34,950 nucleotides of DNA, taken from the IMG/VR virus record IMGVR_UViG_3300044858_000527, positions 1 to 34,950 of that record, one strand, 5' to 3'. Below the pieces are notes generated by a model, which saw only the letters and a program-made list of their open reading frames with translations, had not been told where the DNA came from and made no database searches. Of the stretch, positions 15,865 to 30,116 are shown piece after piece (position 1 is the first letter of the stretch; the number at the start of each line of letters is the position of its first letter). This DNA comes from a virus. The position numbers and the translations under genes are program-made.

Positions 15865-15896
15865 GCGGATAAGTTAATAAAACTAAAGAGGAAACT

Positions 15897-16859
15897 ATGT
15901 CTGGCTACTATTTAACCGATGATCAATTTATTGAAGAATGGATTAAGCTAGGAAGCCCACAGAAGTTTGCAGAAAAACATAAACTGTCCGTTCGATCTGT
16001 ATATAACCGACGACGAAGCGTTGAAGTAAGACGCAATATGGAATTACCTACGCATAACGATGCTAGAAGAAATAGCTTAACAAAGCTACAACAAACTCCC
16101 GGTCATGCAAGGCGTGGTATCAACATGGAAAAGGGTCGAGTAATAGTATTTTCAGACGCCCACTTCTGGCCTGATGATGTCAGCACATCTTATAAAGCGT
16201 TGCTGTTAATGATTAAAGAGTTTCGCCCTAAAGTGGTAGTGGCAAATGGAGATATGTTTGACGGTTCACAAGCTAGCCGTCATGCCCGTATTGGCTGGGA
16301 AAAGACCCCAACGGTTAAGGAAGAACTAGAGGCCTGTCAGGAAATGATGGCAGGCATTGAGAAGGCTGCCGTAGGAGCTGAGCTTATATGGACCCTTGGA
16401 AACCACGATGCCCGATTTGAGACCTTCCTATCAGCTCAGATGGGTACATATGAGGGAGTAGCAGGGTTTACCCTTAAAGACCACTTCCCTATGTGGAAGC
16501 CATGCTGGTCATATTTTGTCAATGAAGATACCTGTATTAAGCACCGCTGGAAGGGTGGATTTGGGGCTGGTCGAGCCAATACCGTTAATTCGGGCTGTAA
16601 CATGATTACAGGCCACACACACAATTTGGCTGTCCAACCCTTCACCGACTACAACGGAACCCGCTATGGGGTTCAAACGGGCTGCCTAGCGAACATTCAC
16701 GGGGAACAGTTCATGGCATATACCGAGGATAACCCTAAAGACTGGAGAGAGGGCTTTGCTCTGTTATCATTTGAGGAGGGCAGACTAATGTTGCCTGAGC
16801 TAATCCAAGTATGCGGAGAAGATTCTTTTGAATTTAGGGGATGCATTAACAAGGTATGA
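15897..16859 (+). CDS. Calcineurin-like metallophosphoesterase with N-terminal helix-turn-helix
   Basis: This 320-residue protein opens with a region of about 45 residues (FIEEWIKLGSPQKFAEKHKL then SVRSVYNRRR) that looks like a helix-turn-helix. The phosphoesterase domain has the full metal-binding set: SDAH (Asp87, His89), GDMFDG (Asp119, Asp122), GNHD (168-171) and TGHTHN (238-243). It should be a two-metal hydrolase of phosphomonoesters, phosphodiesters or nucleic acids; the substrate cannot be read from sequence. The HTH suggests that it acts on or near DNA. AGAGG lies five bases before the start. The last four bases overlap the next gene (ATGA). Confidence 0.8.
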   Translation: MSGYYLTDDQFIEEWIKLGSPQKFAEKHKLSVRSVYNRRRSVEVRRNMELPTHNDARRNSLTKLQQTPGHARRGINMEKGRVIVFSDAHFWPDDVSTSYKALLLMIKEFRPKVVVANGDMFDGSQASRHARIGWEKTPTVKEELEACQEMMAGIEKAAVGAELIWTLGNHDARFETFLSAQMGTYEGVAGFTLKDHFPMWKPCWSYFVNEDTCIKHRWKGGFGAGRANTVNSGCNMITGHTHNLAVQPFTDYNGTRYGVQTGCLANIHGEQFMAYTEDNPKDWREGFALLSFEEGRLMLPELIQVCGEDSFEFRGCINKV

Positions 16860-17203
16860 AACTAACGTCAGCAATCTTAAAGAACTTATATTGTGCAATC
16901 TATTGCATGAAGCCTTTTGATCGCTGGTCAATGCCCTTGCCTGAAGAAGTTCAATTTATAGTGGATCAAGACCCAGAGGTAATGGGTACTTATTTGTACG
17001 ATGATGGCGGTGATTTTGAACACGTCATTACCATTTCAACTAAAAAATGTGGTCATTTAGCAACAGTTATTCGGGTCTTATGTCACGAAGCCGTCCACAT
17101 GAGTAGGCATAAAACTAATCGCTGGTCTCACCACGACGCTGAGTTTAGGCGGCGCACCAAAGTCATATCTGATGAATTGGGCTTCGATCCGCTGGAGTTG
17201 TAA
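16856..17203 (+). CDS. Small HExxH zinc metallopeptidase-like protein
   Basis: In this 115-residue protein LCHEAVHMSRH (about residues 75-85) contains HEAVH at 77-81, the zinc and catalytic motif of gluzincin/SprT-like peptidases. It is followed by RWSHHDAEFRRR (89-100), whose His or Asp could give the third ligand. No signal peptide is present, so it would act in the cytoplasm or on newly made phage proteins. It is coupled to the metallophosphoesterase by ATGA. The size is near the minimum for such a domain. An inactive or structural relative is possible. The motif is seen; the activity is inferred. Confidence 0.6.
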   Translation: MKLTSAILKNLYCAIYCMKPFDRWSMPLPEEVQFIVDQDPEVMGTYLYDDGGDFEHVITISTKKCGHLATVIRVLCHEAVHMSRHKTNRWSHHDAEFRRRTKVISDELGFDPLEL

Positions 17204-17217
17204 TATATACTATCCAA

Positions 17218-17271
17218 TGGGAGGTTACGGCGTTCTCCTCTTTTCGCCTGCAACCCACGGTTGCCCTCCCA
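17218..17271. other. Three-way-junction structured element between convergent operons
   Basis: An outer stem TGGGAGG (17218-17224) pairs perfectly with CCTCCCA (17265-17271). Inside it are two perfect hairpins: GGCG/CGCC (17229-17232 with 17245-17248, loop TTCTCCTCTTTT) and GCAACC/GGTTGC (17250-17255 with 17259-17264, loop CAC). The element lies between the stop of the rightward metallopeptidase gene and the stop of the leftward HNH gene. It may end both transcripts, but neither strand has a strong U-run after the stem, so it may act as a stable 3' end or a regulatory RNA instead. Confidence 0.5.
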
Positions 17272-17277
17272 ACTTAT

Positions 17278-17580
17278 TCATTTAAAGAGTCTAGCAGCCT
17301 CATCCTTCTCGTGTAGTATTTTGGTCGTGGCCTCCAATAACTCAAGTTGGGTAATGGCATAAGCTTTCTCGAAGGCTTTAGCTCCAAGGCCGTGAACACC
17401 GGTATTGCCTCGGTGATGCTCTGGGCAGAGACCGATAACAGGGGCGTTATCTCGCTTACCTCCATACCGACGTATATGGTGTATCTCACAGGGGGTGGGT
17501 CCGTAACCAAGATGTTTGCAAAGTATGCAGCCGATGTCTGCAACACTCGAAAAATGTTTTCTTTCATCTTTTGTTGACAT
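17278..17580 (-). CDS. Ref-like HNH nuclease (recombination-associated)
   Basis: From ATG 17580 the protein has 100 residues. It has paired Cys (CILC, residues 18-21), CEIHHIRRYGGKRDNAP (31-47), LCPEHHRGN (51-59) and GVHGLGAKAFEKAY (61-74). The HNH fold with CEIHH...LCPEHH...VHGLG is that of the RecA-dependent nuclease Ref of phage P1 and related NinX/DUF968-type proteins, which cut DNA at recombination intermediates. A TTG start at 17610 is possible. ATG 17580, with GAAAG upstream and a 17-base overlap with the preceding gene, is more likely. It is the last gene of the leftward operon, downstream of ERF and the RecB-like nuclease. Confidence 0.75.
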   Translation of the reverse strand: MSTKDERKHFSSVADIGCILCKHLGYGPTPCEIHHIRRYGGKRDNAPVIGLCPEHHRGNTGVHGLGAKAFEKAYAITQLELLEATTKILHEKDEAARLFK

Positions 17581-27193: not shown

Positions 27194-27465
27194 TTCTTTG
27201 CATCCTTGGTTAGCTTATGCTTAGCTATAACTGCCTCTAACTTACGAATGCATTCTTCTTGCGCACGGTTCTCGCTCATCAAGTGCGCTACTTCTGACTC
27301 TATTTCATCGCTGACTCTTGTAAGAGTATCTACTGCGCACCAGCAGGCACCGCTTTCTGCGTTATCTGTAATATTGGTAGCTACTAATTCCACTACCATT
27401 GCGGCGCTATGCACCTTGTAACCTAGTTCGCTAATCTTGTTAGCTCTCTCCCATATTGCATTCAT
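27190..27465 (-). CDS. Small coiled-coil protein (91 residues)
   Basis: From ATG 27465, with GAGGAG six bases upstream, the protein begins MNAIWERANKISELGYKVHS. It contains SGACWCAVDTL in the middle and a long charged helix at the end (SENRAQEECIRKLEAVIAKH). The strong ribosome binding site decides this start over an upstream one at 27552. The binding site itself lies within the preceding gene. No family assigned; a coiled-coil partner is likely. Confidence 0.55.
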   Translation of the reverse strand: MNAIWERANKISELGYKVHSAAMVVELVATNITDNAESGACWCAVDTLTRVSDEIESEVAHLMSENRAQEECIRKLEAVIAKHKLTKDAKK

Positions 27466-27886: not shown

Positions 27887-28488
27887 AAATCTTCCTCTAA
27901 GTATGGTTTTAAATAATCTGACCTACTTGGATGGCGCATTTTACGCAATGCCCTAGCTTCCAACTGACGAATTCTTTCCCTACCCACATCAAACATATCA
28001 CCAACTTGTTCCAATGTTTGTTCCTCTGCGTCAATTCCAAATCGTAATTGCAATATCTTCTTTTCTCTTGGAGGAAGAGTTTCTAATTTTTCATCAACAG
28101 CTTTTTTTACATCCAATAAATATTCTTCGCTGCTTTGTTTAACATCAAATCCAATTAAATCAGATGCATTCTTTCCAAGTGCCGCACGTAATTGGTATTG
28201 ATCTAGTTTTCCTTCTGCGCTGCTTGTTTTTAAACGCATGGTTAATTGTTCTTCTGTCCACAAATCCGTTGGACAGGCGCCTAAAACCTCCATAACCGCT
28301 TGTGCCAACTTTGAAAATTCTCCATCGTTGTTTATTGGACAGGCCCGCAGCCCAACTAGTGCTGTAACTTGTGTGTCCGTTAGACCAGCAGATCGAGCAA
28401 ACTCTGCTTGAGATTTGTAGCCAGCATCCTCAATCGCTGACAGTAACAAGTTATTCCTAACCGTTACTTTCACTCGATACTCTTTCAT
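27883..28488 (-). CDS. XRE-type HTH fused to sigma70 region 4
   Basis: From ATG 28488 the protein has 201 residues. Residues about 14-80 resemble an XRE/Cro-type helix-turn-helix ([20 protein letters not shown], then [12 protein letters not shown]). Residues 138-186 are a sigma70 region 4: [20 protein letters not shown], then [20 protein letters not shown] and LRKMRHPS. Regions 2 and 3 are missing, so it cannot be a complete sigma factor; it more likely binds near -35 elements or the RNA polymerase flap. The strong ribosome site GAGGAGAGG and the promoter at 28511-28539 fix the start, making this the first gene of the leftward operon. Confidence 0.75.
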
Positions 28489-29301: not shown

Positions 29302-29340
29302 TTGTCAATAAATGTACATATAGGTATCAATATGTATAGT
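29302..29340 (+). promoter_or_regulatory. Candidate promoter of a short terminated RNA
   Basis: TTGTCA (29302-29307), 17 bases, TATCAA (29325-29330) is one reading. TGTACA (29313-29318), 16 bases, TATAGT (29335-29340) is another. Either would begin an RNA near 29337-29347 that runs through the palindrome and hairpins to the terminator at 29458-29492. The AT-rich context makes chance matches likely. Confidence 0.35.
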
Positions 29341-29341
29341 T

Positions 29342-29365
29342 AATTAATACTTATAAGTATTAATT
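29342..29365. repeat. Perfect 24-base palindrome
   Basis: The half-site AATTAATACTTA (29342-29353) is followed directly by its exact reverse complement (29354-29365). It contains no spacer, so it suits a symmetric dimeric DNA-binding protein or cruciform extrusion better than an RNA hairpin. The next bases start another hairpin without a gap. Confidence 0.65.
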
Positions 29366-29386
29366 TAGGTTCCGTTTGGGAACCTA
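29366..29386. repeat. Eight-base inverted repeat (hairpin)
   Basis: TAGGTTCC (29366-29373), loop GTTTG, GGAACCTA (29379-29386) is a perfect stem. It is followed by GGGTAAACCC, a smaller dyad. No T-run follows, so it is more likely an operator or a structural RNA stem than a terminator. Confidence 0.55.
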
Positions 29387-29457
29387 GGGTAAACCCTTAT
29401 AACTATTAATACTGTATGGATGTACAGTTAGTATTACTTTTCCTCGGTAAGGTGTTT

Positions 29458-29492
29458 GGGGGTGGCATCACGGAGCCACCCCCATTTTTTTT
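29458..29492 (+). terminator. Strong rho-independent terminator
   Basis: GGGGGTGGC (29458-29466), loop ATCACGGA and GCCACCCCC (29475-29483) form a perfect nine-base GC-rich stem, followed after one A by eight T residues. This is the best intrinsic terminator in the window and isolates the promoter of the downstream microgene from transcription on its left. Confidence 0.92.
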
Positions 29493-29497
29493 GCATC

Positions 29498-29668: not shown

Positions 29669-29679
29669 TGGCGTAAGCC

Positions 29680-29713
29680 AAGGGGTGAGAAGAAACTTCT
29701 TGCCCCTTTTTAT
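29680..29713 (+). terminator. Rho-independent terminator after the microgene
   Basis: AAGGGG (29680-29685) pairs with CCCCTT (29703-29708). AGAAG/CTTCT continues the stem across two G-T wobble pairs, with loop AAA, giving about 13 base pairs. A T-rich tract follows (29707-29713). It cleanly ends transcription of the 35-residue gene. Confidence 0.9.
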
Positions 29714-29716
29714 TTG

Positions 29717-29889: not shown

Positions 29890-30116
29890 GTGGTTTATCC
29901 TGGACGGCAGAGAAACACCAGCGGGATAGATACAAGCGCTACTGGGGAAGTAGATGTAAGAGCGCAATATCGGTGGCGAAGCTTAGTGCCGATTCTACGA
30001 ACGACTGGCGAGTGCTGTGGCTCCGAAAGGTAACAGTTAAAGGCGCACTGCTAGGGCGTAGTGCGTCCACCAAAAGGTAACATGGGCTTACGTAAGAAAG
30101 CAATAGAAAGAGAGCA
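29890..30116 (+). other. GC-richer structured leader region without a recognisable gene
   Basis: I see no convincing coding frame here. Successive stems are present: TATCC-TGG/CCA-GGATA (29896-29928), CTACT/AGTAG with loop GGGGA (29939-29953) inside GCG/CGC, ATCGG/CCGAT (29969-29993), and GGCGCACT/AGTGCG-T-CC (30042-30068). AAAGGTAACA occurs twice, at 30026-30035 and 30073-30082, on either side of the last hairpin. The region looks more GC-rich than its surroundings and may be a structured 5' leader or ncRNA. Short frames that cross it have no ribosome binding site. Confidence 0.45.

Follow-up and report, generated by a model that had tools for sequence, protein, structure and literature searches.

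Comparative sequence evidence for a three-way-junction RNA with an invariant UCCUCU loop at an operon end of uncultured freshwater-type phages

On comparative sequence evidence, positions 17218-17271 on the rightward (+) strand of the viral DNA analysed here (the window, 34,950 nucleotides in full) carry a genuine conserved structured RNA, which belongs to an uncatalogued RNA family in a group of uncultured freshwater-type phages. The element is a perfect three-way junction in which every pair is Watson-Crick. It consists of an outer stem (P1), a hairpin with a large pyrimidine loop (P2), and a short-looped hairpin (P3), with the parts laid out as follows:

17218-17271, + strand: whole three-way-junction RNA element (fold; covariation in 16 distinct relatives; covariance-model matches in 25 records)
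17218-17224, + strand: 5' strand of P1, TGGGAGG, pairing with 17265-17271 (fold and two-sided changes)
17225-17228, + strand: junction strand J12, UUAC; in other types AGC after a U-G pair
17229-17248, + strand: hairpin P2 with a 12-nt loop; stem GGCG (17229-17232) / CGCC (17245-17248) (fold and relatives)
17233-17244, + strand: 12-nt pyrimidine loop of P2, TTCTCCTCTTTT, unpaired in the fold
17236-17241, + strand: invariant core UCCUCU within the P2 loop (comparison of 16 distinct sequences)
17250-17264, + strand: hairpin P3, GCAACC (17250-17255) / GGTTGC (17259-17264), with loop CAC (fold and relatives)
17265-17271, + strand: 3' strand of P1, CCTCCCA (fold and relatives)

Fold, covariation and strand

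The minimum-free-energy structure of positions 17200-17290 is exactly the three-way junction (-23.9 kcal/mol, z -2.66), and it agrees in sequence and coordinates with the perfect outer stem and both hairpins proposed in a first-pass annotation of the window. Shuffled versions of this segment fold as well in 4 of 200 cases, and equally stable 53-mers occur at only 13 sampled positions in the window (13,960 strands). The comparison with relatives is decisive for the reality of the element. Among 16 distinct sequences, 12 of the 17 pairs have changed on both sides and 96.7% of the pair cells hold a standard pair, counts that lean towards the structure since a model of it guided the alignment, although the exchanges are still readable directly in the sequences. 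None of 500 shuffles reached that number of two-sided changes, and slid controls gave 0-1. In relatives, P1 reads GGGGG(A)U/G(U)CCCCC, with pairs changed on both sides; P2 takes the forms GGUGUA/UGCGCC, GGCGUA/UGCGUC, GAUUGUA/UGCAAUC, GGCAAU/AUUGCC and GGUUA/UGGCC; and P3 is found as GACC/GGUC, GUCC/GGAC and GUCU/AGAC. The covariation for which the first-pass annotation had proposed to look is therefore strong. An alternative pairing between the 5' strand of P1 and the loop (GGGGUA/UACUCC) suits some sequences but, on inspection, not those of L035, L111 and L054, and it is not conserved.

The same pair cells indicate the strand. G-U cells outnumber A-C cells by 38 to 2, and standard pairing falls to 83.3% when the leftward strand is read, so the RNA is assigned to the rightward strand and a leftward-strand RNA is disfavoured by the G-U bias.

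The P2 loop has an invariant core. In each of the 16 distinct sequences the UCCUC columns read the same and are followed by U, despite loop lengths of 5-12 nt and differing closing pairs, which argues for recognition of the sequence rather than for a constraint on loop architecture. The P3 loop, by contrast, varies at two of its three positions, while the junction AGC is near-invariant on variable stems. Stems kept over a drifting loop, the pattern that the first-pass annotation had named as speaking against its reading, are thus not what the relatives display, as UCCUCU is conserved while the stems covary.

Genomic place and distribution

The element sits at the convergent junction of a rightward and a leftward operon, 14 nt after the stop of the former's last gene and 2 nt from the end of a leftward gene:

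16856-17203, + strand: SprT-like gene, last of the rightward operon (open reading frame list; Pfam PF10263 just below the cut-off)
17274-17567, - strand: leftward HNH gene, RecA-dependent nuclease family (PF16786, 39.9 bits)

In relatives, the element keeps its position after the SprT-like gene while the leftward families differ. At least five mutually unrelated families end -5 to +6 nt from it, among them the RecA-dependent nuclease, an HNH protein resembling YbcO/DUF968 that stays below the Pfam cut-offs, PAPS-reductase-like proteins, a 162-aa protein without assignment, and other small proteins. One locus (L024) has an additional gene, called HNH-type from its sequence and not by profile, between SprT and an element that is still present. 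This gene lies at L024:3348-3848, and the leader upstream of it (AAAGCCCCTAGGAATTAC...) is conserved among L024, L091 and L097, the latter two having their upstream sequence in common with L024. Ordinary hairpin terminators take the element's position in L008, L020, L021 and L046, many relatives have nothing there, and the element's presence, mapped on the poorly resolved SprT tree, is patchy, with 13 changes. A different conserved block, GAGAGG...CCTCTC, was observed at the SprT/convergent junction of L006 (3360-3432) and likewise of L023 and L047; it carries GAAAA and pyrimidine stretches, and the L006 and L047 versions fold only weakly better than shuffles.

Searching with the SprT-like protein returned 80 viral loci, 14 of which have a three-way junction of this kind at the corresponding position or close to it, and further carriers came from scanning the collection of viral records with patterns. 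A covariance model derived from the 16 distinct sequences finds exactly one copy per record in 25 related viral records (window included; several are fragments), which speaks against a multi-copy or dispersed mobile element, and it finds no element in 23 other related records. More distant SprT relatives contributed no additional elements, isolate phages gave no convincing match, and the main-type pattern, run over bacterial and archaeal genomes totalling 257 billion bases, produced only three matches, none of which folds. Across the 4227 families of Rfam 15, no covariance model matches the element near its gathering score; with E up to 5, the window element drew one chance match on the other strand (11.5 bits), and the element of L025 drew none.

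Over the whole window, the only Rfam match at gathering score is RF02932, Betaproteobacteria-1 RNA, which lies away from the element at 29893-30013 on the + strand (88.5 bits). A search for this family in 22 viral records, the window among them, recovered it from 10, whereas 14 control genomes gave none; the match suggests a betaproteobacterial host and a family that is often phage-borne.

Operon-end function and candidate partners of the loop

The reading that we prefer, and to which we give about even credence, is that the element, a three-way junction of ~50 nt, belongs to the 3' untranslated end of the rightward mRNA and serves as a 3'-end module with an exposed recognition loop. Transcription through the element, its function at the 3' end and the nature of its loop partner are what we infer, and the rightward operon is probably expressed late, judging from its structural genes. 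The fixed place after the SprT-like gene and the persistence of the element in L024 despite the HNH insertion favour a 3'-end module, and the ordinary terminators occupying the same spot in four loci point to a 3'-end role there. The function is dispensable, for the spot is empty in many relatives. On the preferred reading, the compact stack of P1 and P3 would fix or protect the mRNA 3' end and keep down read-through into the leftward operon, and the loop would act as a sequence-specific docking site for an RNA purine tract or for a protein. A plain 3'-end role does not alone explain the invariant loop.

An ordinary U-tract intrinsic terminator was considered and rejected, since no T-run follows the element (its tail in the window is AACTTATTC) and the terminator scan is silent there. 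Tails after the element in relatives hold two to five T in eight positions, interrupted, among the matches listed. Textbook terminators do occur elsewhere in this phage, near 29457-29493 (T8 tail) and near 29679-29715 (T5 tail). The stretch at 29330-29493 (+ strand) is non-coding, ends in a very strong terminator (GGGGGUGGC...GCCACCCCC, then T8; z -3.05), and is a candidate phage small RNA.

If the loop docks on RNA, a candidate partner, weakly supported, is a ribosome site within the same operon:

15885-15899, + strand: ribosome site AAAGAGGA plus ATG of the metallophosphoesterase gene (15897-16859) in the same rightward operon; candidate loop partner (weak)

Pairing of the loop with this Shine-Dalgarno site in the same mRNA, tuning translation of the phosphoesterase, is possible, if on the unlikely side. 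Co-transcribed antisense RNAs of other phages offer a precedent, and in most of the carriers examined, across loop types, the site contains eight bases complementary to the loop. The loop and site sequences pair as CUCCUCUG with CAGAGGAG, UCCUCUUU with AAAGAGGA, and UUCCUCUG with CAGAGGGA or CAGGGGAA, the last two with one G-U each. When all ribosome sites of a phage were ranked against its own loop, the phosphoesterase site came first by duplex energy in 9 of 13 carriers, five of these nine being short records with fewer than 25 genes; L127 was left out, its contig beginning inside that gene. However, the site ranks only in the top 10% in the window, the G020 sequence breaks one internal pair, the non-carriers N027 and N025 also rank high, and few independent lineages are represented. 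Swapped loops moreover fit almost as well, so covariation between loop and site is not demonstrated. In a comparative ranking of all ribosome sites, the best-ranking cluster was that of gene 18366, which was set aside because, on inspection, an overlapping reading frame upstream seems to constrain the sequence of its site. A broader proposal would see in the element a new kind of 3'-UTR RNA in phages, an operon-end three-way junction whose conserved UCCUCU loop would pair, within its own mRNA, with the ribosome site of one of the last genes and thereby couple the 3' end to that gene's translation; we judge this rather unlikely.

Another unlikely reading is that an RNA-binding protein, of the phage or of the host, contacts the element at UCCUCU and, for example, protects the mRNA. 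The sequence-invariant single-stranded loop and the near-invariant junction AGC, on variable stems, speak for it.

The first-pass annotation went further and had the loop silence leftward mRNAs in trans. Its picture of a three-way-junction RNA on the rightward strand with a conserved, unpaired loop is borne out; the silencing is not. The 10-11 base matches on which it built are real, with AAAAGAGGAGA lying 5 bases before the ATG at 28488 and AAGAGGAGAA 3-4 bases before the ATGs at 27465 and 22173, and these three ribosome sites are, the element itself aside, the only matches of at least 10 bases to AAAAGAGGAGAA in the window. The predicted duplexes between loop and leaders reach -14.8 to -16.1 kcal/mol, and only 8-9 of 2000 shuffled loops matched the leaders as well, a null that ignores how any pyrimidine loop with a CUCC/CCUC core fits purine-rich Shine-Dalgarno sites. 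In the carrier G003 (loci L206-L208), the ribosome site AACAAAAGAGGAGAAATGAATG of another gene even matches the loop complement perfectly over 12 bases. Silencing is nevertheless unsupported because the leftward sites do not follow the presence of the element. The 28488 and 27465 sites are identical in G025 and G044, where the model finds no element, while in the carrier G002 the 27465 site is lost, being replaced by AAAGGAGCGAGAAG, and the carrier G015 has a 22173 homologue without a matching site. AGAGGAG is not enriched either, occurring in 3.7% of 404 ribosome sites in carriers and 3.8% of 475 in non-carriers, and the loop flanks needed for a 10-11 base match are confined to the window type of the element (window, L001/L005, L002/L030 and L003). 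Targets conserved together with the RNA, the mark of a trans-acting anti-Shine-Dalgarno small RNA, were thus not seen, and no promoter-like site was found just upstream of the element in the window. A trans-acting silencer of the leftward (early) mRNAs at 28488, 27465 and 22173 is accordingly very improbable.

Hardly credible is a role mainly as DNA-level homology for swapping leftward cassettes, for although unrelated leftward genes end flush with the element and its presence on the SprT tree is patchy, homology would keep sequence and not base pairing, and covariation with strand-specific G-U pairs points to selection on RNA.

Likeness to known systems and meaning for phage biology

The 3'-end module preferred here resembles several known systems in part. 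Small RNAs of the 'cuckoo' type use anti-Shine-Dalgarno pyrimidine loops complementary to purine-rich ribosome sites. The element likewise exposes a pyrimidine loop, but its core is UCCUCU where theirs is CCUCCC, and it occurs as a single copy at the 3' end of a phage operon. T4-type phages harbour mobile regulatory cassettes of promoter and stem-loop, conserved hairpin-bearing intergenic blocks where neighbouring genes are exchanged. The element is similarly a hairpin-bearing intergenic block with exchanged neighbour genes, but it is present once per record at a fixed place and is not dispersed. With intrinsic terminators it has in common the position at convergent operon ends, as in L008, L020, L021 and L046, while its branched structure, conserved loop, lack of a T-run and lack of a scan match set it apart. 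In the c4 antisense RNA of phages P1 and P7, the fold exposes, probably in loops, sequences complementary to the surroundings of a ribosome-binding site (PMC12197685). The element is likewise a phage RNA whose loop could offer a complementary sequence; here, however, pairing with a ribosome site is a weak candidate only, and the element lies at an operon 3' end.

For uncultured freshwater-type phages, the element adds a well-supported, uncatalogued family of structured RNA, and the comparison of relatives separates this real structure from a guess on antisense targets that had been made from a single sequence. Should the loop prove to pair with a ribosome site in its operon, the element would be a simple phage model of control through the 3'-UTR.
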